A stretch of 64,000 bases of DNA from Chondrosia reniformis. Taxonomy: Eukaryota; Porifera; Demospongiae; Chondrillida; Chondrillidae. The stretch spans positions 7,310,501 through 7,374,500 of the forward strand of contig OX359193.1 of the NCBI GenBank assembly GCA_947172415.1. The letters run 5' to 3'. A program made the position numbers and the translations under genes. Below are positions 4,701 to 62,200 of the stretch, piece by piece (the stretch's first letter is position 1; each line of letters opens with the position of its first letter). Under the pieces are notes generated by a model. The model did no database searches, was not told where the DNA came from, and saw only the letters and a list, made by a program, of their open reading frames with translations.

Positions 4701-4905
4701 CCCAAAACCGACATCCAATCTATCAAATTAAAGTGGGACATGATTTAGTAAGCGGACCACTAACCTGTATACCTCTCACTTCTCACCTGATTACCACACT
4801 GGCCCACTGTGAATAGACCAGAGAGGAACGCATAAAATGAACCTTGCAATTTAGTTAAATCTATAGTTAAATATACATACCTTGCACAACAATAGATTCT
4901 GTCAT
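1787..4905 (-). CDS. TUBE1: Epsilon-tubulin
   Basis: Sixteen exons on the minus strand: 4881-4905 (ATG 4903-4905), 4787-4806, 4666-4719, 4545-4597, 4427-4484, 4248-4363, 4044-4165, 3873-3939, 3595-3654, 3055-3115, 2830-2993, 2616-2756, 2367-2507, 2220-2301, 2020-2112 and 1787-1942. Together they encode 470 aa, close to the roughly 475 aa of vertebrate TUBE1. The start reads MTESIVVQVGQCGNQIG, the tubulin N-terminus. HSMGGGTGSG is the GTP-binding tubulin signature. NMNEITMNL-like, LVPFPKLHYLVSSITPLY and the C-terminal AHLHHYTRVEGME identify epsilon rather than alpha or beta tubulin. Epsilon-tubulin supports triplet microtubules of centrioles and basal bodies. Oddities: intron 13 (2302-2366) has a GC donor; the 60-nt segment 4485-4544 is an in-frame-sized intron with weak signals; two minisatellites lie in introns 8 and 9. 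Confidence 0.96.
3166..3549. repeat. Minisatellite, 25-bp unit, about 15 copies, in a TUBE1 intron
   Basis: Near-perfect array of a unit reading attggtcactcacacagccc followed by agccg. It lies in the intron between exons 3055-3115 and 3595-3654. Each unit contains ATTGG, the reverse complement of a CCAAT box. The unit length gives open frames on the plus strand with no biological meaning. Confidence 0.97.
3669..3815. repeat. Minisatellite, 26-bp unit, about 5 copies, in a TUBE1 intron
   Basis: Units of cccatagtgccatgatccca plus gtgcat, lying in the intron between exons 3595-3654 and 3873-3939. This neighbouring array is unrelated in sequence to the 25-bp array. Confidence 0.95.
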
Positions 4906-5304
4906 TTTGACCTAGCTGCAACAACTAGCCGCTGTCAATAGGGAAAGTCCCTTACTGCAAGCCAGACGGTTCGTATATCTATGCAATATTCCGTAAACTT
5001 CCTTTCCACTTGCAACGCTTTCTTTAGATCACGCTTCTCATCCCAAATTGTGGAACGTTTCTTGCAAAGCACAGGAAGGAATCAAAGGAATCCATTTCAT
5101 GTTGTCAGATTTCATTGTTGACCAGAATATAAAGACAGTTTTATTTCTTTGTCCGAATTCTGGTGACATAAAATGTACAGAACCATTTTATCAAGATCAG
5201 TATCTCCAACAAAGCCCTTCTTTAGGGTCTCAAGGTAAGTCTTCTCTTTGGGAAGATTAATGACTGACTTCAAGTTTTTTTTATATGACATGAAAAGATG
5301 TAAC
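4906..5304. promoter_or_regulatory. Divergent intergenic region of TUBE1 and ACADVL
   Basis: About 400 bp separate the start codons of two head-to-head genes, so both promoters must lie here or within the first introns. No TATA box is evident close to either start. Open reading frames run through part of it, but none matches a known family. Confidence 0.55.
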
Positions 5305-8300
5305 ATGAAAGTTCTATTGCGCAATGATTATTGTTCTAGACTTATTCTTTTCACTAATAGATCCATTCTGGCAAAAGACATTTATGTCTCATCTGTTGTC
5401 AGCACCGTGCATGCATATAGCTCAGAGACAAAGGTAACATACAGTATGCTGGTTACCATGGCAATATGCTCAGTAGATATATATACTGGATGCCATGGTA
5501 ACTTGTTGGTAGATGGCAATATGCTGGTTACCATGGTGATGTAGTTAGTAGATGTGGTAAATGTTTGTAGGTGAACAACTCGTTTGTGATGGCAATGTTT
5601 AAAGGTGAAATGCGACATGAAGAAGTGTTTCCCTACCCAGATGGTAGGTGAAAGGAGTATGGTATTACCATTTTCAGTCTTAAATTTAAATATTTATTGT
5701 TACTCAGTGTTAACACCAGATCAAAAGGAAGCAGTGAGCCTGTATATAGATCCAGTAAACAAGTTCTTCCAGGTAACAAGAGAACAGATTGTCTTACAGA
5801 AATTGTACCCACATCACTTTATTGATACATGAACAACAGGAGGTTAACAATGCAGCAAAGAATGACGAGGCTGAGACCATCCTACCCGAGGCATTGGCAG
5901 GTTTGAAGGAGATGGGTGCCTTTGGCCTGCAGGTATGTATGTGGGTTTGCTCGGCCAGAGCATAATGAATAGGAATATCCCCAAGGATGTGTTAAAATAC
6001 TCTTTCTCCCAACTCCTTAACACATTTGTAGATAGATAGTGAACCTGTATGGCATACCATAGATACTTGCTTAAACCTGTTGTTGAACCTGTTACTGAAA
6101 GTTTATACACTGATACATCCAGTCACCTCTCTAAGAAATCACATCCCACAGGTGGTTGCATTAGACAGGTACCACAGGTGGTTGCATTAGACAGGTACCA
6201 CAGGTGGTTGCATTAGACAGGTACCACAAGTGGTTGCATTAGACAGGTACCACAAGTGGTTGCATTAGACAGGTACCACAGGTGGTTGCATTAGACAGGT
6301 ACCACAGCAATAATATTTGACTAAGTTATTCTACCATGTGACAGGAATTATATTTTACTAGCTAACTATAAATAGTAGTTGCTCCTTGAAATGTTAGATA
6401 ATGCATACGTACATGAAAGAATGAAAAGAAGCCATAAAATGTTCAAATCCATACCGAGTTATAGGAGAATTGTGACAGAAAAGTTGAAGAATGTTGATAA
6501 TAGTAGTTGCACGCTCCTTCTTGAAAAGAACGCCTAATTATTCAGTAACCATGCCACGAGTTTAAAATACTATTTTGATTGTTTTTGAATGGCACACTTA
6601 AATTCCAGGCAACTTGATCACAGACCTGCTAGGTCAACACCATATAGCTCAGCTCTTAGAGCATGCACATCCAATGCTATGTATGCCAAAGTAACACGAC
6701 CTTTTGAATAGAATGACACACTCCAGTGCTGAATAAATTTGTTTGTATTTACTTAACAATGTCCTTTTGCTGTTTCAGGTACCTACTGAATTCAATGGCA
6801 TTGGACTCACCAACACACAGGTAATGCATGTTCAACACAATGCCATGTATAGCAGCTTCTACTTTCAAAGTCATTCATAGGCACAATATACCATGTAGGG
6901 CTTGTTTCAGTATTGTCTGGGTATATAACAATGGACTTGCAACATGTTTCAATAGAGTGCCAATTGACTTAGTACACAAATGAGTTGAAATAAATGTTTA
7001 CCCATTGAATGTCATTGTTGCCGTGAACAATGGACATTGTTGGGGTTGCACTTGTAGTAATACGTTTCTCTCTCTCATCTACATAGTATGCTCGCTTGGT
7101 TGAGATTGTCGGTAGCTATGATTTGGGAGTGGGAATAGGGCTCGGTGCTCATCAGGTATGTTTGTCTTCTTGTAGGCTGCTGTACTGGGGGAATTTGTGG
7201 GGGCTAGTGATCTGGGTGTGGCTGTTACCATGGCCGCACATCAGGTGACTGTCATGTGACTGGAGTATGGCATAAACCATTTACTTACCATGATGATGTT
7301 TACGTCCTGTAGTCAATAGGATTCAAAGGTATACTTCTCTATGGAAATGAAAGCCAGAAGGCAAAGTATCTTCCAAAAGTACGTTTTTTTAAATGTGGCC
7401 CATTGATATCCTATGATGACTGCTCTGATGTGGTGTGATGACCGCTCTGATGTGGTGTGAAGGCTGTGCTAGTGTATCACTCTTCAGTATGCCACTTCTC
7501 TGTATTTGACAATATTAGGTTGCAACTGGAGAGCACATAGCTTGTTTCTGTCTAACAGAGCCGTCAAGTGGATCGGACGCCAATGTGAGTTCCCTGTTAT
7601 GCACTGTGTGCACTCCTTACTTGGCATTTAACATGTCCATAGTCTATAAGAAGTCGCGCAGTACTATCAGATGATGGAAAGCATTACATTCTCAATGGCT
7701 CCAAGATATGGTAAGAATAGCGTGAGATAGTTGTCGTAGGGCAGGGATGTGGTTACAGCTTGTACGGAATGATTACCCTATCGCAGGATCAGCAATGGTG
7801 GCATTGCTGAAGTGTTCACTGTATTTGCTCAAACTCCTGTAAAGGATACAAAAACGGGAGAGGTCACAGATAAGGTGTCTGCTTTCATTGTTGAGCGAGC
7901 ATTTGGAGGCGTAACCAGTGGCCCACCTGAAAAGAAGATGGGAATTAAAGCCTCCAATACAGCTGAGGTGAGTGTGGAGGAGGTTATGGGAATGAACACA
8001 GTGAGGTAAACTACCTGTACAACGGACCTTTTATGGTTTAGGAATATGTACGAGTTCCTTGTATTATAGCAACATATGAGAAAGAAGAAACTACTTAAAT
8101 TACAAAGATTACAAAGCGCAAAGTTTCAAAGGAATGTTATCCTGTACCTGGAGCTTTGAAAAAATACTTTTTCATGACATAACACCCTTGTGTCCAAACA
8201 TCTGATTGTTATTCTAATTTCTCATTTTCCACTTTGGGTTCCAGGGCTTAATTGTTCTTCTCTGAGCTAGAGGCAAACAAAAGCGGATATGCTATGCCTA

Positions 8301-11300
8301 TTCTGTAGAAGAGCCTATAGGGGAACTAGATGTATTAAATAGCTATACACTGTTTGTCTGGAATGTATTGTAGCACTTTAAGGTTATTATTGAATGACTA
8401 TAATTTTAAATATTACTAGAATTTGTCAACCCCCCATGTCCATTCATTCACAGTATTTATGTTACTATGGCAACCTTTATACAGGTTTACTTTGATAATG
8501 TAAAGATACCCGTAGAAAACAGACTGGGAGGTAAGTTGTGTGCTACACTATCCAGTGGGCATGTTGCATAGCTGTCACGCCCATCTCCACTCCCCCTCAT
8601 ACACAGAGGAAGGAGAAGGTTTTAAGGTTGCCATGAACATTCTCAACAATGGCAGGTTTGGAATGGCGGCAGCACTCTCAGGAACCATGAAGGCACTGAT
8701 TGCTAAGGCAGTAAGTTTAATGACTGTTGTGTGTTACCTTGAAATGTTGTTCTATCTGACTCAAGGACCAACTTCTCTAAGTTTATAAAGATAAGTTTTA
8801 CGCAGTTAAAAGAAATCCTTATTCTATTAAAGATACATTTACTTGAGAATTAACCTCTTCTCTTATCAAAGTAAACTTTCCTAGTCATTAAATAGCAACT
8901 TGTTAAATCATAATTGGCTATTGTTTCAACATCTGGAAGTAATCATGGCTGCTATTGTCTCTTGAATGAACCTAATCAGAAGAAAGTCATTTTGGGCTTA
9001 TTAAGCAATACAATTTCTATGTACAACCATATTCAGAAATACCTTTTAATTGGATAACAGTGAATTATGAATATAATGCTCTCTCTAAATTTAATTATAT
9101 CAACATGTTTTCTGATGACAAGGAGTATTTTATCTGTGTGACAAGTTTGCAAATCTGTAACTCAAACTTCAAAGTAAATTACCCTTATCTTAATGTGTTT
9201 TAAGGTTTACATGAGCAGGTGGTACATTTGAAAGGGTTAATCTTTACAAAAGCTGGTTTGGCCCTCAGAGATTACTTCTCTTGTTTATTAAAAGCATTTT
9301 TCTGTGTCTCTCTCATGGCATCAATCACCATTTGGGGAAGGAGGTGGCAAAACATGAAACAATATAACTTCTTTTTGACCTCTTTAACAAGTCTGCCATA
9401 TATCACCATGGCAACCTCAAAGCAGTCATTTAATGTGATTATAAGTGGTTCCTTATCTGTAATGGTTCAAATGCAGTATACATATCAGATTTTATGTCAA
9501 ACTTTTCATGTCAGGAAAAAATACGGTCAACTTAACCAAAATCATGGTATCAAATGACAACTGATATTAACACAAATTGTTTCTTATGTGACTAGTATAG
9601 ATTCCTTGGTTATTTTATCACTGTTTACTTTCAAACGGCAAATTAGTGAAACCTTGTTTCTCTTTGCCAGCCCTTCCCCTAATTGGGCTCCAATGTTGTA
9701 TCTGTCCTGTAGATTATCACATGCAAATCACATGATTATCACAACACTTTAGGTTGAACATGTGACTGCAAGAGTTCAATTCGGAGATAAACTTCAGAAT
9801 TATGGAGTCATTCAAGAGAAACTCGCGAGAATGGCAATGCTACAATATGTAACGGAGGCAAGCAGCGCACATGCCAAATCTCCCTTAGTTGTCCATCATC
9901 CCTGAACTGCTCCTCCTTTGACAGTCCATGGCTTACATGATCAGTGGAAACATGGATAGAGGTTCTGTAGAGTTTCAGCTTGAGGCAGCCATCAGTAAAG
10001 TGCTTGCCTCCGAGGCAGCCTGGAATGTGGCTGATGAATGTATACAGGTTGTAGTTTTGTATAGATCTGTATAATTCTCTTGTGTTACTTCATATTGCTT
10101 ACTCTATTTCCATAGTTACACGGAGGCATGGGTTTTATGAAAGTGAGATGAGCTGTATGACTGCAGTGGAGTTGTGAGATGTGGTTTCTGTTCCTGTAGG
10201 ACTGTGGACTGGAAAGGGTTCTCAGAGATTTGAGAATATTCCGCATATTTGAGGGAAGCAATGAGATCTTGAGACTGTTTGTGGCTCTGACTGGCCTTCA
10301 GGTGGGTACAGTGCCTCCCAAACAGCTTGACAGTTTTTCTCTACTATCATAGCTTCACTTAGACCAAGTGTGCAAATTTTTATGACGGCAATGTCTCAGT
10401 AGCTGTCACCGTATCATATCTCCACGGCATCCTGTCATATGTGATAATGTCTCTATGCGGCTTCATTCAGTGTCACATACCCATACAGTGTACAATAGAA
10501 AAGATTAGAGAATAAACTACTCTCTGATCCGATGTACATCTATGTATGTAACCATGTAGATATAAATAAAACAATTATTAAGAAGATAGTTACATTGGCA
10601 CATTTCCTTTACTGGTCTAGCATGCAGGCAAGCACTTGAGAGAACTTCAAAAGACACTGAAGAATCCTGTCAGTAACATGGGATTGATAATCACTGAAGG
10701 CATCAAACGAACTCAACGGTTAGAACTGATAAGAGAATTGACTAAATATAACCACAACTGTTTACAGATTTAGGATTTGTTTGTTCTCAGTTCCGTTGGA
10801 CTGCCAACTGTGCCATCCCTTACTGGAGCTGTGCATAATAACCTCACGAAGGAGGGGGACCTCCTGAGAGAAGCTGTGACCTTATATGGGGCCGGTGTGG
10901 AAGCAGTACTTGCTAAACACGGAAAAGAGATAATACGTAGGTCTTGCTCACAGCACACCCTCTGATCTCATTTTGTTTCTTGCTGTGTTGACCTTGTATT
11001 GTATGACCCCAGGGTACTAATTGGTAACAGAATAGTTTTATCTTTTGAGGTGGAGCATGTGCTAGTTACCCTGTATGGCCCCCGCATGTATAGAGCTAAT
11101 CATAATAGAAGGCTTTGATGAAGATTGAGTGCCAAGGAAGACATTAATGTGCATTAGCTGCTTTCCTAATGAAGGACCCACTCATTCTGAAGATGACTGC
11201 TAACAGCTGTCATGCTCACAATGAATGTAGTTATCTGACAACTGTCATGCTCACAATGAATGTAGTTATCTGACAACTGTCATGCTCACAATGAATGTAG

Positions 11301-26432: not shown

Positions 26433-29400
26433 ATGACCGAATTGATTGACTATTTAGTTATAGTAGGACGGCTGTCTGATCTACCATGCTCTGTTGCGAT
26501 GAAACACCAGACGCCTGTGGTAGATGGATTACCTAATATATTATGCAAGTTTCCTGAGGCGCGGCCATCTTGTCTTCCTCTTACCCCAGATGTACCAGCG
26601 TTTTGTATGCTTCAGGAACACATGAAGACGTTTGAGTATAGCAAATCAATGAATCACTTATTCATGCTCACAGACAAAGAAACTGACACGAAGAGATATG
26701 GTACATGTGTTCAATTTACCTTTGAGCACAGCCCTATTCAATCCAACGTAGAGCCTTCAGCAGATAGTGAAGATCAATTGGAGTCATTTGAAGTGCCTTC
26801 TGTTGGTGCACTATCCCTGGCTATCATTAGCAAGTTTCCCCATTTCCGGTTTTTCAAAGAATGTCTTCAACAGCTTGTTCAATATGTGGATGTCTTATTC
26901 AGCAATCAGATGACCTGGCTAGATCTCATTGACACTTCGCTATCTAGCAAATCATCAGCTGACCCAGTCCATGATGTGCTGGAGTGGATCAATAGTTTGG
27001 TGACTTTGGAGGTTCCCGCCATCGGCGAACTGCTTGAGGTGGAGCTGTCCATAGCCCCACCCATCAAGGTGTACACCCCCCCTCCACACAGGTTGCCCCT
27101 AGCAGATCTACCATTTTATAGGCTCTTTGATGCACTCTCTGTTGACAATGTTCTCAAGATTTTTACACTTTTGTTATGCGAGGAAAAGGTAAGAAGATCA
27201 TTGACAATATCCTAGAACTAGTATATCTTTGGATACTCCTCATTGTATGAATGTAAAGTGGTGTAGATGTATTGAAAACTATCATTAGGATACTAAGCTC
27301 TATCTTTGTTAAGATTTGGTCAATACATGGGGAAGTGTTATTGTTTAATTTTACCATATCACTGTTGCCATGGTAATGCATGACAGGGAGTGTGTAAGCA
27401 GTTTTATATGTATCTAGCAGCTTGTAGCAGGAGTACAAAAGAACTTTCAGTAATTTGTACATTAAAGTAATTGTAAGATAATTGATTAATAGGTTTAGCT
27501 AAAACCTGTCTTTGTTTGGTCTTAATTGAATCACCTTTTGATGGTTGAGCAGGTGACAGATGGAAAGTACAACCAAATCACTAAACTGTCACACCATGGA
27601 TTGAAGGTGGAAATACTGAAATGGATTCCAAGTGAATAGACCTTTCCTTTTACACTTTAGTAATCAGATTAGAGGTCTGACATATAATAGTGATTTAGCA
27701 TATGTACATGAATAATCAATACACTTTTCTTACATGCTATAAATAGTAAAAGGCCTATGGGGAACTAAACCTAATGAGAGCTATAGATGAGGATACAAGA
27801 GGTTTCTCCTTTTACTTTTTTCTTCTTCTCTACTGGGCCATCCTCTTACTTTTCTTCTTCTCCACTGGGCCAGACAGCTATTTCTGAGAATTCCACCCTT
27901 CATCAGTGACTCTGGGAATCTTTGTTTTCTTCTTCTTGATCTTTTGTGAGTCTTGGCTCTGATCTTCTGTGAGTCTTGGCTCTGATCTTCTGTGAGTCTT
28001 GGCTCTGATCTTCTGTGAGTCTTGGCTCTGATCTTCTGTGAGTCTTGGCTCTGATCTTCTGTGAGTCTTGGCTCTGATCTTCTGTGAGTCTTGGCTCTGA
28101 TCTTCTGTGAGTCTTGGCTCTGATCTTCTGTGAGTCTTGGCTCTGATCTTCTGTGAGTCTTGGCATATATAGTAATATAGTGGGTTTTAACAAATCCTAG
28201 AGGTTTCTTTGAGATAATTTGAGATTTGGCTTTAAGTTCAGCTAACATGATTGTTTATAACAAATATTTGTACTACATATACAAACTAAAAGGTAATTGA
28301 GTGAAGCCTGTTTATACAGCAGGAAGTGATACAATGTAAACAAGTTGGTTGGTGGGTTTAAGTGAAATAAAGCAAGCGTCTGTTTGTTTGTACAGAAAGG
28401 TTGTCTGGAATGTGCTCCAGGTCGCTTTGCGTTGGTCCTCGGAGTCACACTGCTTTGCCACCTCTGCTATAAATATACTCATTAGCTGTCACACAGTTGA
28501 GTGGAAGTCACTATTGGAGAGACACACGGAGTGTACCTGTATGTGTGTGTCTGGTCTGTTTATGGTTCAGACCACCCTCATCCAGTCACAGTACAGTGAT
28601 ACAATGAGATAATTAATAGAATATTAGGTAATATGTGGAACTGAACAGGTTTATAACCTCTTTTGAAGAAAATAGTGAACTGCAGCAGAATGTAGTGGAG
28701 TTCCTGGTAGTTAACAATTAACATATCTCGGTATGAGGGAGGATAGATGACAGATGATATTAAAGAAAGATATCTACTCCCTATTAAATTTGATGTACAC
28801 ATGACCTGTTTTCTGTCCTGACTTCATATTCCTCCCACCTTGTTACCATGGCTACAATAATAACTTAAAATAATGGAGACAATACAAAACCTTTAGATTT
28901 GTTTGAGCTGTATGTTTGTCTGTACATTCAATCATCTATCCCATAATTCTACCCGCCCATCTATCCCATTATTCTACCCGCCCATCTATCCATCTACCCA
29001 TCTACCCATCTACCCATCTATCCATCTACCCATCTATCCATCTACCCATCTACCCATCTATCCATCTACCCATCTATCCATCTACCCATCTATCCATCTA
29101 CCCATCTATCCATCCATTCATCTATCCATCTACCCATCTATCCATCTACCCATCTATCCATCCATTCATCTACCCATCCATCCATCTACCCATCTATCCA
29201 TCTACCCATCTATCCATCTACCCATCTATCCATCCATTCATCTATCCATCTACCCATCTATCCATCTACCCATCTATCCATCTACCCATCTACCCATCTA
29301 CCCATCTATCCATCCATTCATCTACCCATCTATCCATCTACCCATCTATCCATCTAGCCACCCATTCATCCACCCATTCATTATTCTGTTGTTTCTCGTC

Positions 29401-32400
29401 CGCCTTACTAGGTAGTAGTTCACTCACGTAAATTTGCTTTAGTATCAGAAGCTGTCCTGACGCTGGTGCACCTCCTCTATCCATTTGGCTACCTGTATCC
29501 AGTTGTACCACTCCTACCCACAGCTCTACCAGAAGCTGAAAATGTAAGTGTTTGTGTTCATTTTCTCCAACCATCAGTTCAGATATAGCTAATCATAATA
29601 CGTACATTAAAATGACCCCTTTGGAGAGATATAAATAGCTAAAGGGAGCAGAATCTCAATTAAAACCTCTTCAGGACAGTTGCGTATATAACTGTTCAAA
29701 CTCAATTCTTCATTAATATGTGCAAATGATACAGTGGGAAATCTGAGAGGATTAATTTAAAGGTTATACATATTTGAAGTAAGAAGATTCCACTGTACAT
29801 CAATCATTAAACTATATTCACGATATGAATATAGTTTAATGATATTCAAGAAGAATGCAGCATTTGCAATGTACTCCATTTTCATTTTATACTAAGACTA
29901 TGCATAATATTCAACTAATTGGCTCTAGTACATGAGGGCATGTACCTATAACCAATTGGAAGTTTCAGGACTCCCACATCACTTGACAATTCATTCAGTT
30001 CCAATAGATATCCCATTGATAATTAATTAAAATAATAGGTTTAAGAAATTGGTTAGAATAAAACTCTCATGCAGTTATATGCTAATTCAGAGTTCAATGT
30101 TAGGTGTAGTATGCAATACCATGGATTGTTATTACTTCTTTCTTTATACCACAACTTTCAGCTGTTGCATGTACCAACTCCATATTTAATTGGTGTACAT
30201 TCATCTTTCCTTGATAAACTGGAAGAGAACACCGACATTTGGCTGGTCAGTTTGGACGAAGACAAAGTGAGTATACGTATGTATATCTTTTAGATGGGTC
30301 ATATGTTGGAGTTCTGAACATCTGAATATGCAGTTTGATAAGTATTTGGATGTTTTGGATCTTCTTCCATTGCTTACTAGACTGTGTCTCTAAACACTCA
30401 AAAACAACCCATCTAGAAGATAAATTAAATGCAGTTTAAGAAATCTTTACTCTATTATGTATGTATTTTATTGCTTGTTCCTTTGTGTTGGCTAATGTTT
30501 TGACGTTTGACCTTTAAAATCTACCTGAAGTGTGTGACGTTTGAGCTTTAAAATCTACCTGAAGTGTGTGACGTTTGAGCTTTAAAATCTACCTGAAGTG
30601 TGTGGCCGTAACTTGTCAGTAATCTCTTAAACTGTGTTGTCTTTTTACAGGTGCTACCACCAGAAGCACACTGCAGAACTCCTGAATTACCAACAAGTCA
30701 TTTTGAATTGAAAGCAGATATTCAAAAGGTTGGCTGTCATTAATATACATAATTATGCCATACAGGCTCTGATGCAAGGCTTTTATGTACATACATTTAG
30801 TAGTGTATTTTATTATCTATGTACATTGCAATTCCACTATAGGCTCTGGCCAATCTGTCCAAACCTTCCTCGGTCACACATGATGAAGTTGATACTCTAA
30901 TTCGTGTTGCTTTTGTAAAGTTTCTTCTTGCTCCGGACATGCTGAGCTGCATACTACATCACATGTACATTATCAGGCTCTTTCCCAGGCCAACCATCTC
31001 ACTCAAGAGCCACTCCTTTTCAAACGAATACCGCTCAATTGTGCGCAAGATGAATAGTTCTACAGAGTTTGTGGAGAGAATCCTTTCAAGTCAGGTGTGC
31101 TGTTGGTAAACACACATGTTTGACGTTCTTACATGCAGCTCAAGTGTGTAGTTCAGTAGAGCATCTATTTATAGTGTTGACTATAAATTTCATTATATGT
31201 GACCTCTCTAGGTCTATATATTCCCCATGTATGCAGTTGCATATTAATGACAGTCACCTCTGTATTATCAGTCACATGTGCATTGGTTGAAAGGTGATCA
31301 TTATAACTTTGCACATGAAGGGAATTTTTTTAGGGTTCTTATGTCTCAATTTAGTGTATCAGAAACTTCCTGGAGTGGACCTTAAACCCAGACAATACTG
31401 CCTACATATCAATCATTCAGAAAAGTGAGTTAATAGAAATACAAGCATATTAGCCACTCTCTATTGTAGTGAACTGGCCAATTCTTACGTTTGGTAACTA
31501 CAGATGTAACAGATCCAAGCTTTATTGGTAGCAGCGTCGATATGATAGCACGGCATGAGCACCTCATGAATCACTCCGAGATGCTTTTTGATCCCACTAG
31601 AACACCACTACTCTATCAAGTGTTGCTAAGCAACAGGGGTTTTGACCAGACCTCCTTGGGTGACGGAGAGGGATATGTTATGGCTGAGGATTCCGACGAC
31701 CCAGAGGGCGGTGAGTCATGGGTCTTGCTAACCCCTACTGAAGGAGTTTCTACCCAAAAAGAGAGGAAAGTTAGCGAATCAACAGATGGACATTGTGAGT
31801 CTGTTTCCATGGAAATGACCCAGCTACCATCAGTGCAAGATACAAATGCCACTCTAACTCAAATGCTCCTAAAGGAAACTAAGAGAGCCTCCACAGGATC
31901 CTTTATCCTGCAGCCTCAATGGCCCAGCCCTGTTGCCACGCCCCCTCCAAGTCCTGATGGAACAACCACTTCTACGCCAAATGTATCGAAAAAGAGAGAG
32001 AGGTAAATGGATTTATTGCAGCTTTCAGCTTAACCTCAGCAGTTCATTCATTCTTCCCTTCACTCACAGTAGCTATGACAACTGCCAGGAGGTTGTGTCT
32101 CACATCGTTGATGGAAGTGGGCTGAGGTGGATTAAACGTAAAGTGGAGGGACTTGCCTCCACTGAAGCTCAGCGTGTTAATCTTTTAAACTCCTTGAGAA
32201 CAAGACTGCAAACATTGAAGCACTCTAAAGATGGAAATGGCACACAAACTGCCGAGCTGTTTCATGTGGTAAGAAGACAGTAATCATGTACACTTGTGTA
32301 AGTAATTGCTACATTTGGTATGAATTGATCAAACAGTTCTACAAGTGATTAAATCACGAGTTTTATGTGTACATACGTACGTATGTAATATGTACGTAGG

Positions 32401-46000: not shown

Positions 46001-48059
46001 TACGTACATATAATTACATTTTTCTTTAATTTTGAAGAAAACCTTTATGGATACTTTATAATCATATTCATAGTTTGAGTGGTCCATCTTTCAACTTTTT
46101 CAACTTTTCTATATGAGGTTAGGGTTTGGTAGAACCACTGTTGAGCATTATGACCCCAAGGGTCTGTACCTTGACTACACAGACACTCGACTATTGCATC
46201 AATATAGACAATCAAAAGTTGAAATATGCACAAACTAAATTATCAGTTGAACTATTTAGAAGGAATCCTTATTAAAGTTTGGTCTTGGAAACTAACTGTC
46301 TGCTTAAGTTATTTTGCATACACTGTACCTTCTTATATTGTTATCATAGACTAGACATTCAGTATAATATGGATTTATGTACATTGTATGTACCAATGTT
46401 TACATAATTCCATAGTGATTCTAGTCCCTTTTTATTAGGTGCGTAATTATATATCCACATCTATGTATAATAATTTATACATGTGTATCACATAATATAT
46501 ATGCAACTTAACTTCTTCATTAATACTACATGTTCATATGTGGTGATATACGTATGCTTCTGCAGAACCTTTATCTATAATATTTATTATTATATTATTT
46601 TATACCAATCAACCTGCATAGGGCCGGATATTGAGTCAGTGTGTGTGGGAGTCAGCGAGTGTGTGAGTGTGAATGTGTGAATGTGAGTGTGTGCATGTGT
46701 GAGTCAGTGAGTGTGGGAGTCAGCGAGTGTGTGAGTGTGAGTGTGTGAGTGTGTGCTTGTGTGTCAAGAGTGTGAGTGTGAATGTGTGCTTGTGTGAATG
46801 TGTGCTTGTGTGTCGAGTGAGTGAGTGTGAATGTGTGCTTGTGTGAATGTGTGCTTGTGTGAGTGTGTGAGTGTGAGTGTGAACATGTGTGAGTGTGTGC
46901 TTGTGTAATACATACTGTGTGTTCCATGACCCTAGTATGTATTTTCAGATTTCAGGATTTGGAGGGATTGAAAAGAGTGCAAGCTTAAAGGAGGACACTG
47001 AGATTAGATGGATGGCGCCAGAAAGCTTGCTTTATGGTAAATACTCTTCCAGCAGTGACGTATGGAGTTACGGAATGGTCTTATATGAGATATGGTCACT
47101 TGGACACAAGCCATTTGAAGCAATGTCATACACGCAGGTCTGTACAGAGCTTTCATAATGCTGTGTGTCTAATTTAAATATTTGCAAGTTTATTTACAAG
47201 TTCTTCATCTAATATTTTTATATTTTATCTGATACATATTTCTCCATAATAAGCGTATATATTAATATTATACAATTGTTGCTGAGTCTCAATAAATTAG
47301 GATACTTATAATAATATTAATAAAATATAATAGAGAGTCACTTCATGTAATATATATACCCACCTACTAGGTCCACAAAGTACACATATTTTCCTATTTT
47401 CCAATTGTTTCATACATAGGTGTTAACTCTACTTAACACCGGCTATTGTCAGCCTCCCCCACCTGGGTGTCCTAGGGATGTCTACGCTATTATGGCAGAC
47501 TGTTGGTAAGAGGCCAGCTGTTGCACAACACTAATTTGTCTAGACAACTAATTATTCAAGAAGGGTGGTATTCCCAGAAACAGCTGTCTGTCCCAGTGGA
47601 GTAGAAGAAGAAGGAGAAGACTCTTGTATCCTCATCTGAAAACTATCACTAGGTTTAGTACCATTTCATTGTAGAATAGACGTAGTGTATAGGAAAATGG
47701 TGCTTTAGGCTACTCTTGATATAAACACCAGTGAGAACATAAGTAATCTATAACACCATTTTTCTACATGCTACATCAATTGTAGCGTAAGAGGTGAGAA
47801 CTTTGGATGAGGATACAAGAGTCTTCTCCTTTTTACACATTGAGATGTATCACTTGTTTGTATCTCCAGGAATCCTGAACATAAGGAGAGACCACACTTC
47901 TCCCAACTTTCCGACGAATTTTCAAAATTTTCCTCTGTGAAAAATGAAGATGTAGAGAACAGAGAGAATAAATTGTTGCTGGATACCGCTTCAAAATTGG
48001 GGGCCCCTCTTGAGGATGGATTGAGGCTCTACATGGACATACAGAAGAAGTACGCATGA
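40066..48059 (+). CDS. Receptor tyrosine-kinase-like membrane protein, predicted pseudokinase
   Basis: Eleven exons: 40066-40144, 41262-41768, 41963-42415, 42520-42926, 43279-43335, 43593-44066, 44672-44739, 44813-44963, 46949-47137, 47420-47505 and 47870-48059 (886 aa). Signal peptide ([18 protein letters not shown]), a roughly 170-aa ectodomain of unknown family, and a Ser/Thr-rich stalk. One membrane span follows ([20 protein letters not shown]) with RRFKKG after it, then a roughly 250-aa juxtamembrane region with several Tyr motifs (ENPYDNI, EDVYELP, ERIYDEM). The kinase-like domain begins near residue 590: [12 protein letters not shown] (Gly loop), IAVKVL (Lys kept). The catalytic loop reads [10 protein letters not shown], so the HRD Asp is His. 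The DFG motif reads [11 protein letters not shown] and [17 protein letters not shown] follow. Kinase activity is therefore doubtful; a scaffold or allosteric role is inferred. Sponges have large families of such receptors. Confidence 0.9.
45216..45292. repeat. Imperfect hairpin, about 77 bp, in a receptor-gene intron
   Basis: cttttgattcttgagcatct and its imperfect complement agatactcaaatagtcaaaag flank a short centre. The gagcatcta core also occurs near 1617-1628, which suggests a dispersed element. Confidence 0.7.
46640..46910. repeat. Degenerate GTGAGTGTGTG microsatellite
   Basis: About 270 bp of gtgagtgtgtg/gtgcttgtgt repeats, ending about 38 bp before exon 46949-47137. A pure purine/pyrimidine-alternating tract lies this close to an acceptor. 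Confidence 0.95.
47553..47830. repeat. MITE-like dispersed element, family B, copy 3 (inverted, with partial second arm)
   Basis: 47553-47672 is the reverse complement of copies 1 and 2 (aagaagggtggtattccc at one end, gactcttgtatcctcatct at the other). 47777-47830 carries the same gatgaggatacaagagtctt in forward orientation, making an inverted pair around about 105 bp. It fills most of the last intron of the receptor gene. Confidence 0.78.
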
Positions 48060-48275: not shown

Positions 48276-51200
48276 ATGCTACGTCTTCAAAACATTCAGA
48301 GAAACTCAAACTCCTTCTTTTCTCTCAGAGGAACTCACAGGAACATTCGCCTTTTCAGTAAAAAGGCTGTAACTTCAGTTGATGACCAAAAGTTAGACGA
48401 TACTGATTCCCACGGGCATCCTCGTATTCCTTTTAGGGGCTGGTATGAACTCGAAAAGTGCGACGTTAGGAGGCAGTGGGTCGAGCGATTTACCGGGACG
48501 AAGCTGGAACAGGTTGGAGAATGGTGGAAACGTGAAGGCAGTGATGACAGCACGTCTACTTTGAAGTTAAAGGGTAACATAGAGAATGTTATAGGCCTAG
48601 TAAAGATTCCTGTCGGAGTAGCAGGTCCTTTGCTATTTAATGGGGAGGACGTACATGGATATCAGTTGTGCCCCTTCGCAACCACCGAGGGAGCTTTGAT
48701 AGCTTCAGCAACGCGAGGCAGCACCGCTATAACGCGAGCTGGAGGCGTGTGGACAGCAACAGGGACGCAAGAAATATCGAGAAACCCAGTGTTCAAAACT
48801 CGATCGATTAAGGAGACCCAGCTGCTTTGGAAGTGGCTGAAGGAGAACCAATCTTCTCTCTCTGACCAGGTCAACATGTACAGTCAGCATGCAAATCTGG
48901 TTGACCTGCGAGCTATTCCCAACGGCTGTTGTCTAGGCGTAGAGTTTGTTTACAGCACTGGGGATGCCTCAGGCCAGAACATGACTACCAGCACGACCTG
49001 GCACACGTGCAAGTGGATCCTCTCCAGGGTGAGCCAGGAACTGCCGCAGGTGAAGGTTGAATACTTGATGGTGGAGGACAGCTCCAGCAGTGATAAGAAG
49101 CTATCTTTCAGGAACCTCATCAGGACAAGAGGCACCTTTGCACAAGCAGAGGCCTGGCTCCCTGAATCCATTATTAGGGATGTTCTCAAGGTGGATATTT
49201 TAGTTTAGACTTATCAGTGACGTATGGAAGGCTTCTAGTGTGTCTGTTACCTTCTGTAGATTGATGTAAAAACTCTTTTGGAGGGATACAGTATCTTGAT
49301 GTCGGGAGAGGTGCAGTCAGGTACCATTGGAAATGCAATAAATTCCCCGAATGCTTTGGCTGCCATATTTGCAGCTACAGGTCAAGATATAGCCGCAATA
49401 GTGGAATCATCCGCTGCCATATTACAATTGTTTCCATACCGCCCCAAGACTGGTCATTACAAAAGTGGTGCTTCAAGCAGCCATCTATCACAGCAATGTG
49501 ATCACCTCCCTAATTTTGATCTTATGGACAAGGAAGGTGGAATATATGTATCACTAAAGTACCCAAGTCTGTGCATTGGCACAGTAGGGGGAGGGACAGG
49601 TATTGTGACGCAAAAGGAATGTCTTCAGATGATGGGGTGCTTTGGAAAAGTAAGTGAATTTTGTGTCACTACAGCAAAGTATTCAGCAATTCCTTGTACC
49701 ATGATGCATTATGTGAATGAGTATCATAAATTATTGTGACATGTACTATAAGGATAAAGATTACTTGTGCATTGATGCACCTTCCCAAAAGGGAAATGAT
49801 GGCATGCCTATATCCATGATGGTTGTCATGACATCGCATCACCTAACATCACTCTTGGTGATGCGCACTGCTACTACTGATGGTCTATGAGAGGTTGATC
49901 TGAAGTAATTGTTCTTCACTTAAATGATCACATTGTGTTTCTGAAATGACATTCTATCACTTGTCCTTTGTCTGCCAGGGGAAGAGGAAGAGGCTTGGAG
50001 AGATGATTGCAGGGTTCTCCCTGGCACTGGAGCTCTCTCTGATGGCAGCTCTCTCCAGTGGCCAGTTTGCTCAGGCCCACGAGAAGCTGGGTAGGAACAG
50101 ACCAGACAATGGTCTGAAGGAGCGGCACCTTAATGAGAGCCTGTTTAGCCAGGTACTGGGGCATAGAGGAAAATTGTTGTCATGGAAACCAATGAAGGTA
50201 AATATTGCAGATATAATTGTCTATTTTCAGTATATTACACTTGTATGACAGTTTGTTTTTGAACTGTTTTGTATGGAATAAATACTCCTAATTTATATGT
50301 GTAGGTTAACACAGGCTCTAGTATTTTATCAGAATTAACTAAATCTGAAATGAGCAAAAAAGTCGGCCATTTTGGATACGATCTGTGGTACAGAGACACT
50401 AATGGTATGTTGGACTGTCATAAATTGTTATAAATTTTGTGGCTTCCCAACAACTTTGTGTTAGTTATTGAGTTTATGTATGCACCTGATGTGTATGGGT
50501 TGCTAGGAGACGAAAGAGAGCTCCCAGTGGTCATCAAGGCAAAGGCTCTGGATAGCGAGACTTACAATATTGTCAACAAAATGGCGCAAGGGTGTGGCTT
50601 GCAGGTTGCCGGGCTATTTGAAAATTTCAAGTCAGAAGTAGGATTTAAGTAAGTATGTTCCACTTTTCAGTTGTTGACAAGTTACATTTTAGAGGTTGAC
50701 ATATTTGCAGGCACTGCCACGAGCGAGAAATCCAAATAGCTCTTAACAACGATCCCAACCTCAGAAAGTACACTCCAGAAGTATATCATGTCATTAGGAA
50801 TCCTCCAAAGGTGAGTTGGGCCTGCTTCTCAACTAGTTCCATTGGTACTCCTCTCTTCAAAATGGAGTTGTCCCCTCAGGAGATCTGCATTGTCTCAAAA
50901 TATTTTAGTTTAGGAAAGGCCATTTCTTGTTTGTGTTTATGTGTTTATGTGTTTCCCGTGAGTGTAGCATATAGACATGGGAACATCTACACATGAGACT
51001 AGATGGTAAGGTAGTGAGACTAGATGGGTAAGGTAGTGAGACTAGATGGGTAAGGTAGTGAGACTAGATGGGTGAGGTAGTGAGACTAGATGGGTGAGGT
51101 AGTGAGACTAGATGGTATTCTATACGCTTGTATTGTATTCTTGTAGGATATCTACGTTATGATCACTGAATTTTTATCAAAGGATAAATTTGACCTATTG

Positions 51201-52460
51201 AACTCTGCGGATGATATATCTGGTTGGACTAAAGGTGACATTGAAACTGTATTGACTGGAATAGCAGAAATTCACTCTCTCAACTTTAACAAGGGAGCAG
51301 AGTTGTCTGCGTTGCCATGGATGGATTCCTTCACTGCGCAGAGGATGGTCAGGCTTGAACCTTTGTGGCAAGCCATGTTGCAACATGCGGTGAGGGACTT
51401 TCCAGAAATGTGGACTGAGCAAAGGTTTATTCAACTAAATACTGTAGTATGCATGCCTGCTCTTTAGACTTCTAGTGTTCCACAGAAATGTTGTTTCAGA
51501 CAATTCATATGTAGTACAGTGGAACCTTTCAAATCTGATCACTTACATGTGTATGGGGACTAATTTATATGGCTCTGCTTTAGACAGATGGCAGGGTTAT
51601 CGTTTAACAGACAGTAGTTTAAAGTATGGAACTTGATTGAAATGACCACTTTAAATGCGTACCAGTCCTAGAGAGGTTACTGTAACACAGGTTCCACTGT
51701 AGTTTTGTATATAGTATAAGTTTTGGGTATTTATGTATGTAATAGTTCTTATGGTATAATTGCTGGTTGTGTTGTGTACATGTTTATTTCAGACAGCAGA
51801 TAGTTAACAAGGCTCTCAATCAAACAACCAACATTTGGAGTGTACTAGATGACTTTCCAAAGACACTGATTCACGGAGATTGTAATCCTAGAAATTCTTG
51901 TCTCAGAAAGCTGGATACTGGTCAGCCATTTTATTTCCTAAGAATAATTACTAAAGTTGGTACTCAGAAGTGTTGCTATATTTGTTTGTATTCTCCCATG
52001 CATTTTAGAGGAGGAAGGCCGCCACCGACTGTGCTTGTATGACTGGGAGCTCTGCACAGTTCATGTACCTCAGAGGGATCTGGTGGAGTTTCTGTCCTTT
52101 GTTTTACCTCCTGAAGCTACCTTTGAAGACTGGATAGGATTTATCAAATTCTATGCAGCCAAACTAGAGGAGTACACTGGACAACAGTTTCAAATGTCAA
52201 AGTAAGGAGTTTCAAATGTGTTACCATTCTCCTGTGCTTGCTGTGATGAATGGACAGTTTGCTAGTGTATTTTTTATAAATTTAGGTTTCTGGAGGTTTA
52301 TGACATGGCCAGCCTTGACTTTGCAATGACCCGGCTACTTCTCTATACTATTGCTCACACATTCAAGGACTACAAGTTCCTTCCGAGGGTCGTTGACTCA
52401 ATTTTCTCTTACATACAGCAGAGGAGAGAGCAGCCAATTGACCTACTAATATTGAAATAG
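48276..52460 (+). CDS. Soluble HMG-CoA reductase fused to an APH-type kinase domain
   Basis: Ten exons in unbroken phase (48276-49190, 49260-49649, 49979-50197, 50305-50404, 50465-50648, 50711-50810, 51147-51424, 51793-51920, 52009-52201, 52286-52460) encode 893 aa. Residues about 60-500 are an HMG-CoA reductase catalytic domain: ENVIGLVKIPVGVAGPL, ATTEGALIAS with the catalytic Glu, GDASGQNM, SDKKLS with the catalytic Lys, ATGQDIAA with the catalytic Asp, IGTVGGGTG, ELSLMAALSSGQ and a His in AQAHEKLGRN. No sterol-sensing membrane domain is present. Residues about 540-893 resemble the aminoglycoside/choline-kinase fold: VVIKAKALD, LIHGDCNPRNS (HGDxxxxN) and LYDWELC. The reductase makes mevalonate. 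The kinase substrate is unknown; mevalonate or a pathway product is an inference. The N-terminus (MLRLQNIQRNSNSFFSLRGT) looks like a mitochondrial presequence. Confidence 0.9.
50994..51115. repeat. Minisatellite, 22-bp unit, about 5-6 copies
   Basis: Units of gagactagatgggtaaggta plus gt, in the intron before exon 51147-51424 of the HMGR-kinase gene. Confidence 0.93.
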
Positions 52461-52831
52461 ATTTTTACCACAATTCTACAAAATGATTTTAAAACTGAAT
52501 CAACCAATAAAAATTTATAGTTTTATGCATATCAGCTGCTCAATTATTGACTGAGTACGGTGACCTTTTGAGGATCTAACACTTTTAATTTACAAATCTT
52601 ATGATACCACAACTACCGACTGTGCATTTCTTTATGCTTACAAACTACATATATACTAACCAACCATAGACTGCAATTCCATATCCACACAATTCCTTTA
52701 TGATGACGTCACAGATCATGTACATGTTTACATTACAGCTACGTAGCTGTAAGAAGTCATTGTTATTTTTTCGTCATTTGCCTGCTTTCCAAAGAGCGGA
52801 TCGCTACAGCTTTCTTGTCGAGGAGACAACA
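52461..52831. other. Spacer between HMGR-kinase and the GHR gene
   Basis: 371 bp holding the 3' UTR of the upstream gene and the promoter of the next. The GHR reading frame stays open back to ATGs at 52700 and 52703, so the last 130 bp may encode an N-terminal extension. Confidence 0.55.
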
Positions 52832-54417
52832 ATGGAAAAAAAGCAATCTTTGAAGACTGCTTTCTCAAACGAAAAGGGAGAATTCAAACGAAAGCCATCG
52901 CAATTTCGAGATTTTGTAACCAAAGACGGCAGTTCGAGGTTCAAAGCAGAGCCAAATAGATATCACCTTTATGTCTCTTTGGCGTGTCCGTGGGCGCATA
53001 GAACACTAGTTGTCAGAAAGCTGAAAGGACTCGAAGATGCTATCTCTGTAGACGTGGTAGATTACTACTTGGATATGGACAAGGGGTGGAAATTCTCACC
53101 GGGGAAGGAGGAATCCTGCACAGCAGACACTGTAAATAGTTGTGAGTACTTGCGAGAGGTTTACTTAAAGGCCAATAAGGACTACACGGGACGCATTACA
53201 GTTCCTGTTCTTTGGGATAAAGCGCAAGGAACCATTGTTAATAACGAATCTTCGGAAATCATAAGAATGCTAAACTCGGAATTTAACGACTTTTGTGCAA
53301 CTCCAAAGCAGGCAGCACTAGATCTTTACCCGAGTCACCTCAGGAAGCAGATTGAAGAAGTGAACGAATGGGTTTACAAGTTGGTTCTAACAGACAATTA
53401 ATTTTTAGAATATAATAGCTAATTTTACATGTGGTGCAATTCTAGTGAATAGCTGCATCTTAATAATTAATGGAAAAAGGGTGTATAATTAATTCTTTGT
53501 AACTTTATAAGTTTTTTGGTGAAATGAATGATTCACTGGAAAATATTATGCTGACTGAATCTTGGCTAGGGGGCCAAAGTCACTTCGAATGGCAACCAGT
53601 CATCCAAGATGGAAAAATGTCTCTATCTTTGCATAGGCTTAAGTGCAATTAGCTCCCATACTTTTTATAAGTATTTTTAATATTTAGGGATTTCAACAAT
53701 GGTGTGTATCGTACAGGCTTTGCTACAACACAGGAACATTATGATGCAGCTGTCAGGGAAGTGTTTACAGCCCTTGATAAGGTGAGCTAGCCAAATTTAG
53801 TGACTACAGTGGAGTCTCAAAGGCTGTGTTGTGATTGGTGGAATAATAATTATATCTTTTCACAACCGGCCTTTGTACATGCATTGTGCAATTAACAACA
53901 CAAAATGGAAATGTGGTTATATTTCTATGTATGCTAGTTGGACAATATCCTTTCTAAGCAGCGCTATCTAACTGGGAGTACTTTAACAGAAGCTGATGTC
54001 CGACTATATACCACTTTGGTAAGGTTTGATCCGGTCTATGTGGGCCATTTCAAATGTAATAAGAAGCGTGTCATAGACTACCCCAATCTGTGGCCTTACC
54101 TGAGAGACCTCTACCAGACTTCAGGATTTGCAGACACTACAAACAGGTTTCACATTGAACATCACTATCAAGTAAGTTGTACCATTACAACTGGTTCTTT
54201 GTATATATTGTTATTGAACACACTTTAGATAAACTAGTTCTTTTCAATGTTGTACTGCAGCTAATTACTGTTGCTAAGACATATTATCCAACCACATCAA
54301 AGTATTTTTTACCTTCTTCTTTATAAGGAATCCCACGCTCAACTTAATCCATTTGGAATTGTTGCCATTGGACCAGTGCTTGACTACCACCAGCCACATG
54401 GGAGAGAGAAGATGTAG
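52832..54417 (+). CDS. Glutathionyl-hydroquinone reductase (Xi-class GST)
   Basis: Four exons: 52832-53379, 53688-53781, 53938-54171 and 54328-54417, giving 299 aa from the Met of MEKKQSLK. An alternative ATG at 52700 adds 44 residues ([20 protein letters not shown]) that could be a mitochondrial signal. ACPWAHRTL holds the catalytic Cys of the CPWAH motif that defines Xi-class GSTs (YqjG, PcpF, ECM4). [20 protein letters not shown] is the GSH-binding region with the NESSEI signature. [37 protein letters not shown] and [13 protein letters not shown] are family hallmarks. The enzyme reduces glutathionyl-(hydro)quinones by a Cys mechanism. Exon 1 ends at a gttggt donor, where phase and family alignment both fit. 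Confidence 0.94.
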
Positions 54418-59250: not shown

Positions 59251-62200
59251 ATGGAGAAACTAAAAGGCAAAGTTAGAACATATATGGCTCCTTTAAATTG
59301 TCGTGTTATGAATTTATTGTCTACATAAATATTGTCATGTCCTTCAGAATGCCTTAAACTTGATTTTAAAGAAGTTTTCCGACTCCTGTGGTGTTGTGAA
59401 ATGTGTCTTGGATTTCTACAAGTCCATGGCTCAAGCTGAAGAAAATTATGCTGCCAACATTAAGAGGATAATCAAAGCAGGAGCCGCTTTTGGCTTCAGA
59501 TCGACCTTCTTAATGCAGCTCTTGGAGATGAGTCCACACGAGGAATTAAAGTATGTAATGTGCAGTCTGTGACTAGTGTATTCACCTCTGGTCTCCACCA
59601 GGTCACTAAAGGAGAGTTGGTTGACCCTTGGCCGTCAGCTTAGCTTGCTTATGGAGCACCATTTTGCAAAGGTTACTGATGATGTACAAATGTTGTGCTA
59701 TTAAAATTTATAATCTTCTAACACTTCTTAGTCAAAGAGCTATTCCTCTGATATCAGGCAACCCTTGCTAGACCTTCTTCCTCAACTGGAAGAGACAAAG
59801 AGGAAAGTGAGTATACATTATTGAGGATGAAAGAGGAGAGAGTGCCTCTGTGATGATGGGGCGTGCCTCTGTGATGGTGGGGCGTGCCTCTGTGATGGTG
59901 GGGCGTGCCTCTGTGATGGTGGGGCGTGCCTCTGTGATGGTGGGGCGTGCCTCTGTGATGGTGGGGCGTGCCTCTGTGATGGTGGGGCGTGCCTCTGTGA
60001 TGGTGGGGTGTGCCTCTGTGATGGTGGACGTGTACTTCTATGATTGTTCTGTTGCTATAGCTCAAGAGAAGATCTGCAGAGTTGGTTGCTAAACTGGAGA
60101 TATCTGAAAAGAAGACTACTGCTGTAAGTTACGTATTATACACTCTATACCAGCAGTTCATGAAGATATAATAAGTAACGGTACATCTAGGAGGATACAG
60201 ATGCTCTGGTTTGTTTAATATTTCTCCGATTTGTTGTCCCATGTAGACTAAGAAGAGGTACTATGAAGCTGGTGACAGATATCAAAGAATAGAAGCAGAT
60301 TTGACTAAAGCAAGGTACTCCACAGACTAAGTGTCATCCTTAATTAGTGATGGTAGTACTTTTGTTTTGACTGATGTTAGAAATGTTCCTGTTTCACAAT
60401 AATTATATTTTACTCTGCCTTGTTGTACAGGAATTCTAGTAATCAGAAACTGATTGCAGTAAGTCTGGTCCATATTTATGACATGAAATACTTTGTATAT
60501 ACATTGAAGATTAAAGATTTCCATTTTCATTTCAGCAAATGGAAGTCAAACTTAGTCACCAGGTTTCTGAAGTGGAGAATTGTGAAAATAGGTAACCAGA
60601 CAGTATACAAGTATCGTATATGTATGTACGTACATGTCTTGTATGCACCACTGCAGGTACAAGAAAAGCTTAGAAGAGTTGCAAGAAGCATATTCAGCCT
60701 TTGATACATCTGTTGTTAAGTTGTTCAAGGTACATATATATGTATGTAAGGTTGACACTACGTATGTCCTCCACATTTACTGATTGCATGAGATGTCAGA
60801 TTCGATTCCTTATATACTGCTCTCTTGTTGCTTAGGAGATAGAGGAATGTGAGGTCCAAAGAATTAAAGTAGTGGCAAGCTCAATAAAAGAATTTACAAA
60901 GTAGTTCTCTTTCCTGTTTCATATATTCTTTTGTTAGATGTACTTGGCTACCAAATGTATCATGCTCTCCAGATCTATAACATTCATATACTACATTCAC
61001 TAGGATCTTATCCAATACGTCACCAATATATTTGGAGGGAATGCAGAGGATTACATTGTCAGTAGATGAGATTAGTGCTGAAGTAGACATTGAGACTTTT
61101 GTTGACAGTCACAAAGACCTTTTGGAGGAGATGACACTTCCAATCTTTGAACCACATCCGTGTAAAGTGAGCTATGTTAAAGTTTAATAATTCTTGGAAT
61201 TAGGCTGTCGTGTTGTGATGTTATTATTATTAACTCTGGTCTTAATGTTTATTGAAATGCTGATTGAACTAGAAGATAGATGTGGTTTGATTATCACTGA
61301 TCTTTTTATGTGTACATCAGATAATGATTGGTGCCACAGCCTCCAGTAGTCCACCTTCCACCGATACAGCAGCCGGCTTGGATAGTGGACCTGAAGACGC
61401 CCAAGGGTCACCCACAAGAGATCAGCCAACATCAGCAGACACAAACAAGCAATCGTCACCTAATGGACCTAGTTCAGTTCCACCACCAAATGAAGATCCC
61501 ACAGAGATTACCAGACCTAAACCTCCCGCAAAGCCCATAAAGATAAGATCATTGTCTTCCTCAACAAATGATCCTCCAAATTCTGAAGCTACATTAGCAA
61601 GAACTAAATCACCTTCAGTAGGACAGACCAGAAAGGCAGAAACTTTAGATCCAGGAGGTCCTTCAAAAGACCAGCATGTTCATAATGATAGCTTGGAGGT
61701 ACTTCTGTTGGAACTGCAGGGTCAGGTGACTGTTAATGACTATTACAAGCTGCTGGGGGCTTCCCCATCTGCTAACGAGGCGGAGCTGGCCAAGTGTAGA
61801 AGAGAGCGGAACCAGGAGCTTCATCCAGACCACTTTAACCAACAGCCAGAGCAGAGAAGAAGGTGAATTACGACAACATTTCACTAAGCTAACACTATTA
61901 CATGTAAAACCACTTTTATATGTATCAATTTACATATGTATATGTATAATATAGTATGTAAATGATTTGCATTTATAGTGCTGAAGAGAAGCTCTCTCAA
62001 ATCAATCAAGTGTACACTAATGTTCTAAAGCCTCCTGGTACAAGGGAACTGTATGACCAGCTTTGTTCCTTCAGAAAGGTCAGTAGCTAACTGAATTATC
62101 CAAGTAACTAGCTTGCTAGCTGGTAGAAGGTACAATTCTAGTATAGTGTGCTTTACACCTGCCACACAATAGCAACTAACTTTAGTATCCAGTTGGATAT

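Follow-up and report, generated by a model that had tools for sequence, protein, structure and literature searches.

Every demosponge examined by Conaco et al. (2016, PMC4784904) has two genes for 3-hydroxy-3-methylglutaryl (HMG)-CoA reductase (HMGR), one of which clusters with prokaryotic HMGRs. As set out in the main text of that paper, the authors assigned the prokaryote-like gene to class II, proposed that it was acquired by horizontal transfer and linked it to isoprenoids, and they report that Capsaspora has both HMGR classes and that some fungi have class II; the same main text contains no match for 'kinase' or 'phosphotransferase'. Here we analyse a 64,000-nucleotide stretch of the genome of the demosponge Chondrosia reniformis (contig OX359193.1, positions 7,310,501 to 7,374,500; hereafter the window), in which a gene at 48276-52460 on the forward strand encodes an HMGR-fold domain joined to a kinase of the EcKL/APH type. 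Like the demosponge second HMGR, it is a sponge HMGR of bacterial affinity, and the two probably belong to the same gene family; unlike that HMGR as described in the main text of PMC4784904, the window reductase scores as class-I-like, has no lysine at the position of human Lys735 and is joined to a kinase.

Several other known families invite comparison. The kinase shares the HxDxxxxN loop and the DWE metal site with EcKL (PF02958) and APH (PF01636) kinases. The reductase has its fold family, catalytic Glu, Lys, Asp and His, DKK loop and Asn755 in common with class I HMGRs (1dq8, 8ecg and 6hr7, which we take to be the human, plant and archaeal enzymes), but differs from them in the absence of Lys735, in having Asn at His752 and Glu at Ser684, and in the added kinase; compared with animal HMGCR, it is also without the N-terminal membrane spans. 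Its sister group, a set of lysine-less bacterial HMGR-like proteins, likewise lacks Lys735 and has AMP-ligase, UbiA and pyruvate phosphate dikinase (PPDK)-like neighbours in common with one of the bacterial fusions described below, but these proteins are unfused and keep His752. The gene is real, with ordinary parts and an unusual whole, and is a variant of known families. We consider it about an even chance (probability roughly 0.5) that it encodes a bacterial-type acyl-thioester reductase with a kinase that would yield a phosphorylated alcohol, probably not phosphomevalonate.

A reductase and a kinase in one reading frame

Ten exons in continuous phase give a single protein with nine GT...AG introns, in line with an earlier note on this DNA, although its length is 879 residues, 14 fewer than the 893 given there. 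Pfam places HMG-CoA_red at residues 62-474 (E 2.6e-90) and EcKL at 594-813 (E 5.9e-10), with APH also recognised (E 2e-6), all above their cut-offs, and no GHMP family is among the four Pfam families listed for the protein up to E 10. The four reductase catalytic residues (Glu138, Lys274, Asp348 and His469), the HGDxxxxN/DWE kinase motifs (HGDCNPRN at 742, DWE at 769) and the missing membrane part (no 19-residue segment starting before residue 100 has a mean Kyte-Doolittle value of at least 1.0) are all as the earlier note had them.

Matching bacterial proteins were found. A tblastn search of 72,556 plasmid records returned a single record at 80% coverage or more, a plasmid of Streptomyces sp. 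NBC_01435 (L004), which encodes a 780-residue fusion in an uninterrupted frame that aligns through the junction (33% identity over 834 columns, E 4e-140). A Pseudomonadota genome (G1268, locus L081) encodes another of 840 residues, again in one frame (35% identity over 836 columns, E 6e-169). Between pairs of the three fusions, the reductase domains are 40-49% identical, the kinase domains 30-33% and the linkers 23-29%; the distance from the catalytic His to the kinase HxD is 273, 270 and 277 residues, and HxDxNPRN and DWE are kept in all three. The search for the pair in bacteria that had been proposed for this gene yielded two full-length fused homologues, and the claim of one reductase-kinase protein is borne out by the same single-frame architecture in both. 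Because two bacterial proteins align over reductase, junction and kinase in one frame, chance can be excluded. We define the fusion family by both domains in one frame and in the same order, Asn752, no Lys735 and a single reductase clade, features that the three members share.

Searched alone against the same plasmid records (E up to 0.01), the kinase domain gave 1 match, the Streptomyces fusion. The closest kinase relatives found are the kinases of the other fusions and a stand-alone protein of 400 residues (E 4e-28) in G1079 (L082, 8781-9980, minus strand), a genome without a reductase match; further unfused kin gave weak matches in G142 and G262 (E about 1e-9). The window kinase matched no PDB chain by sequence up to E 10, and the only PDB kinase matched by the Streptomyces fusion protein was a choline kinase (E 2.4). 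The window reductase matched the PDB chains that we take for class I at E 6e-39 to 2e-65 and other chains at 8e-5 or weaker, and scored 266.9 bits with the NCBIfam equivalog TIGR00533, below its cut-off of 441.8 bits, and 25.2 bits with the degradative HMGR model TIGR00532. A class II identity was ruled out by the closer class I PDB matches and these profile scores.

Literature searches on a reductase-kinase fusion found no paper. We take the gene transfer to be already known and the fusion and its bacterial relatives to be new; the pocket changes and the probable alternative pathway, neither searched for in print, are also taken to be new.

The reductase pocket is altered at three positions

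Pocket residues were compared across 75 aligned reductase rows, which include near relatives and are hence non-independent; human residue numbers are those presumed from the motifs. Glu559, Asp690, Lys691, Asn755, Asp767 and His866 are invariant in 75/75 rows, the catalytic Glu, Lys, Asp and His are present throughout (75/75), and the window reductase has the DKK loop. Lys735 was found in only 12 of the 75 rows, namely three PDB rows, a Streptomyces mevalonate operon (L036) and eight Pseudomonadota genomes, and in none of the three fusions. In HMGR crystal structures this lysine forms a salt bridge with the terminal carboxylate of the HMG moiety of the bound statin (PMC9500038).

Two more pocket positions differ, both encoded on the forward strand. 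Asn333 (49341-49343) stands in the place of human His752, with Asn in 3/3 fusions and His in 72/72 other rows, and Glu267 (49074-49076) stands in the place of human Ser684, with Glu again in 3/3 fusions. With the lysine that binds the carboxylate missing and two further pocket positions altered, HMG is probably not the acyl group. Statin resistance is predicted for the window protein, and we suggest that position 735 read together with 752 could serve as a residue test separating mevalonate enzymes from look-alikes, which go under the name hydroxymethylglutaryl-CoA reductase in database records (L005 and L034 are examples).

In a separate case, a Sinorhizobium HMGR-like gene (L035, 2369-3613) lies between acyl-CoA carboxylase genes and its protein has Lys in place of Arg590; it is perhaps another non-mevalonate reductase.

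The fusion reductases form one clade beside lysine-less bacterial proteins

The final reductase tree, from which 21 of 73 rows were omitted (L035 and L084 as odd rows, and 19 either because they were near-copies or to save time), unites the three fusion reductases in one clade (support 100/97), with the lysine-less bacterial group next to it (96/91) and the animal, plant and archaeal rows at a distance, while the Lys735 rows form one side of a branch (100/97). An initial tree held only two fusions, both on long branches, and was re-run without one fusion and without L035 and L036, the two longest other rows. With one fusion omitted, the Streptomyces row stays in place (97/93), and the window row falls beside the same group at 85/81, its top identity being 40%, to an archaeal row. 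The G1268 fusion, added later, grouped with both other fusions.

Position 735 and the mevalonate pathway

Two markers of the mevalonate pathway, HMG-CoA synthase (PF08540) and mevalonate-diphosphate decarboxylase (TIGR01240), were scored against their cut-offs in bacterial genomes. Both were above cut-off in all three Lys735-bearing genomes counted (G030, G207 and G307), and in none of 54 lysine-less genomes (44 + 10, each with at least one reductase read). Neither the synthase nor the decarboxylase was matched in the fusion-bearing G1268. By reading of their reductases, G1323, G1383, G1095, G1260 and G1091 also bear the lysine, and lie outside the 3/3 pathway count. The Streptomyces mevalonate operon (L036), on a different plasmid from the fusion, has annotated mevalonate kinase, phosphomevalonate kinase, decarboxylase and HMG-CoA synthase genes; its HMGR carries Lys735 and differs from the fusion, and its mevalonate kinase is a separate protein.

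Genomic neighbourhoods of the bacterial relatives

On the Streptomyces plasmid (L004, 13209-18121) the fusion follows a GH3-family gene and precedes a thymidylate-kinase-like P-loop gene with which it shares 8 bases, going by the predicted start of that gene; the GH3 family comprises acyl-adenylating enzymes, and frames resembling nonribosomal peptide and polyketide synthases were recognised by eye in the same region. The G1268 fusion is followed on one strand by genes for a CDP (cytidine diphosphate)-alcohol phosphatidyltransferase/CarS-like protein, a formyltransferase-like protein, a hydrolase/AMP-ligase, UbiA and a PPDK-like protein. The first of these (L081, 11780-12979), directly after the fusion, combines the CDP-alcohol phosphatidyltransferase with a CDP-archaeol-synthase-like domain in one frame. 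A Pfam scan of 6 Streptomyces and 6 G1268 neighbours revealed no mevalonate gene, the rest of the Streptomyces region lying outside the scan.

Of 9 loci from the sister group of unfused reductases, 7 (L033, L067, L068, L069, L071, L072 and L073; not L070 or L074) have an HMGR-like gene together with UbiA and PPDK-like genes, as in the L033 cluster (413-10472) with its lysine-less HMGR-like protein. Six of the seven also have DUF3419 (not L072), six have GNAT (not L068) and four an AMP-ligase; by eye the L083 cluster looks alike, and plasmid L037 has annotated UbiA, phosphoenolpyruvate/pyruvate-binding and DUF3419 genes after its reductase. These clusters occur in Pseudomonadota and in the phylum of G002 (Bacteroidota, judging by its Runella member). 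Most of them also encode a membrane protein that has no clear Pfam match. From these contexts we infer a possible common theme, with an acid that is activated, a reductase, and a product that undergoes phosphate or CDP chemistry.

A proposed activity, and the explanations that compete with it

Taken together, these observations suggest a mechanism in which the N-terminal HMGR-fold domain would convert an acyl thioester and two NAD(P)H into a primary alcohol, to which the C-terminal EcKL/APH-type kinase would transfer a phosphate from ATP, forming a phosphate ester by channelling within the same chain. The acyl group would probably not be HMG, and the product would probably be some other phosphorylated alcohol for lipid or specialised metabolism. 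The animal would have gained the gene from bacteria. More broadly, and a little more tentatively than the reading of the gene itself, we propose that the fusions are a previously undescribed single-chain reductase-kinase family converting thioesters to phosphorylated primary alcohols outside the mevalonate pathway, at home in bacterial lipid and natural-product clusters, and that an animal acquired one, added introns and a mitochondrial signal and may use it to make a metabolite not known from animals. The published 'extra HMG-CoA reductase' of sponges may then have been placed in the wrong pathway, and, if the substrate differs, the gene offers a handle on an animal metabolite and on a bacterial gene cluster.

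Several results weigh against this proposal. Glu at 684 is not special to the fusions, occurring in 34 of the 75 rows (the 3 fusions and 31 others, many of them lysine-less), and every one of the three fusions retains Arg590, Asp690 and Asn755. Class II HMGRs are without Lys735 yet use HMG-CoA, and loss of the lysine therefore does not prove another substrate. Single markers were above cut-off in some lysine-less genomes (the synthase in G010 and G425, the decarboxylase in G1102 and G1197), and a near full-length decarboxylase scored slightly below cut-off in G425, G464 and G558, so that G425 may have both markers despite its lysine-less reductase; the completeness of the tested genomes was not given, which makes the absences soft. 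Finally, the window row sits on a long branch of the tree, and the two bacterial fusion neighbourhoods are unlike each other and name no product.

The earlier note had supposed that the kinase next to a mevalonate-forming domain could act on mevalonate or a derived alcohol. Its position does suit the alcohol product of the reductase, and two bacterial lineages have the same arrangement conserved; 'mevalonate-forming' is the doubtful part, because Lys735 is absent, Asn stands at His752, none of the 54 lysine-less genomes has both markers above cut-off and the fusion neighbourhoods are of a non-mevalonate kind, and the evidence leans towards an alcohol other than mevalonate. A bifunctional HMG-CoA reductase/mevalonate kinase, making mevalonate and phosphorylating it in cis for isoprenoids, is in our view unlikely, although several points speak for it: all four catalytic residues are kept together with Arg590, Asp690, Lys692 and Asn755, a phosphate on the new alcohol would be the next mevalonate step, the P-loop kinase gene overlapping the Streptomyces fusion is of the fold type of animal phosphomevalonate kinase, and HMG-CoA is made in mitochondria. 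The main text of Conaco et al. (PMC4784904) moreover places the prokaryote-like sponge HMGR in isoprenoid synthesis. Set against this are the three pocket changes (Lys735 absent, Glu at Ser684, Asn at His752), the absence of both marker matches from G1268, the twelve scanned neighbours without a mevalonate gene, and the Streptomyces operon, where a different, lysine-bearing HMGR is paired with a separate mevalonate kinase.

That the two domains use unrelated substrates, or that one is inactive and the fusion serves only co-expression or assembly, would fit the poorly conserved linker (23-29% identity), but three distant lineages have kept the two active sites intact and Asn752 marks only fused reductases, and we regard it as quite improbable. 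We give very little weight to a regulatory kinase that phosphorylates a protein or the reductase itself: mammalian HMGR is regulated by phosphorylation near its catalytic His, but EcKL/APH enzymes are small-molecule kinases, and the neighbours of the bacterial fusions are of a biosynthetic type with further small-molecule phosphate chemistry. Least credible is an artefact. A reductase-only transcript could end in intron 3, which has an AATAAA and an in-frame stop, but an assembly join or two-gene artefact was ruled out by the bacterial homologues fused in one frame, and, for contamination as for separate genes, the nine GT-AG introns, the coding G+C of 0.46 in a window of 0.38 and the HMG-box and MADD death domain neighbours all argue otherwise. 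The acyl-thioester reductase with its own alcohol kinase thus remains the reading that we prefer.

Rarity of the fusion

Across whole genomes, fusions were found in 0/398 (phylum of G001), 0/296 (phylum of G002), 0/385 (class of G262) and 1/369 (class of G307), in draws that share some genomes and in which reductases cut by contig ends (for example in G619) cannot be judged; in the last draw 51 genomes had a reductase match, most of these reductases being unread. Actinomycetota chromosomes were covered by a short-peptide scan only, and the window is the sole eukaryote covered. Short peptides of the window protein, compared with genome contigs, found three unfused reductases only. No adjacent unfused reductase-kinase pair was detected among frames of at least 200 residues in L001-L037, where, besides the Streptomyces fusion, kinase matches were no better than E 0.3, and two scans of a viral collection found no relative.

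Gene structure and surroundings in the sponge

All features below lie on the forward strand of the window. Exon 1 (48276-49190, residues 1-305) encodes the N-terminal segment and the first part of the reductase domain with Glu138 and Lys274. Residues 1-34 (48276-48377) are Lys/Arg-rich and contain an RLF-S motif, which we take to resemble the R-3 cleavage site of mitochondrial presequences; by composition alone, the first 35 residues have 7 Lys/Arg and 0 Asp/Glu. The N-terminus is probably a mitochondrial presequence that would send the enzyme to mitochondria in the animal. Exon 2 (49260-49649, residues 306-435) continues the reductase domain with Asp348 and has a 30-residue insertion (360-389) missing in both bacterial fusions, and exon 3 (49979-50197, residues 436-508) ends the domain with His469 and the linker, its end being the 508/509 split used in the earlier note.

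Intron 3 (50198-50304) lies at the domain junction. The claim that no stop separates the two domains holds for the exons but fails for this intron, which on retention gives an in-frame stop and has an AATAAA at 50277-50282; a reductase-only transcript could result. The kinase domain starts in exon 4 (50305-50404, residues 509-542), and its N-lobe in exon 5 (50507-50648) has Lys552/Lys554, and exon 6 (50711-50810) Glu595, in common with the Streptomyces fusion. Exon 7 (51147-51424) encodes more of the kinase, exon 8 (51793-51920) the catalytic loop (742-749), exon 9 (52009-52201) the metal site (769-771) and exon 10 (52286-52460) the C-terminus and stop codon, with a polyadenylation-like AATAAA at 52506-52511, starting 46 bases past the stop codon. 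The weak donors are GTGGAT after exon 1 and GTTTAT after exon 7, and both of these exon joins match the intron-free Streptomyces protein gap-free.

The closest upstream reading frame (47844-48059) stops 216 bases short of the start codon and is taken for the last exon of a putative tyrosine-kinase-like gene. Together with two other neighbours, an HMG-box gene and a MADD death domain, it points to an animal or close kin as the probable host. The next downstream frame (52823-53398) encodes a glutathione-transferase-like protein (GST_N_2), and repeat stretches in which several frames are open lie at 28897-29428, 59757-60128 and 3112-3636.

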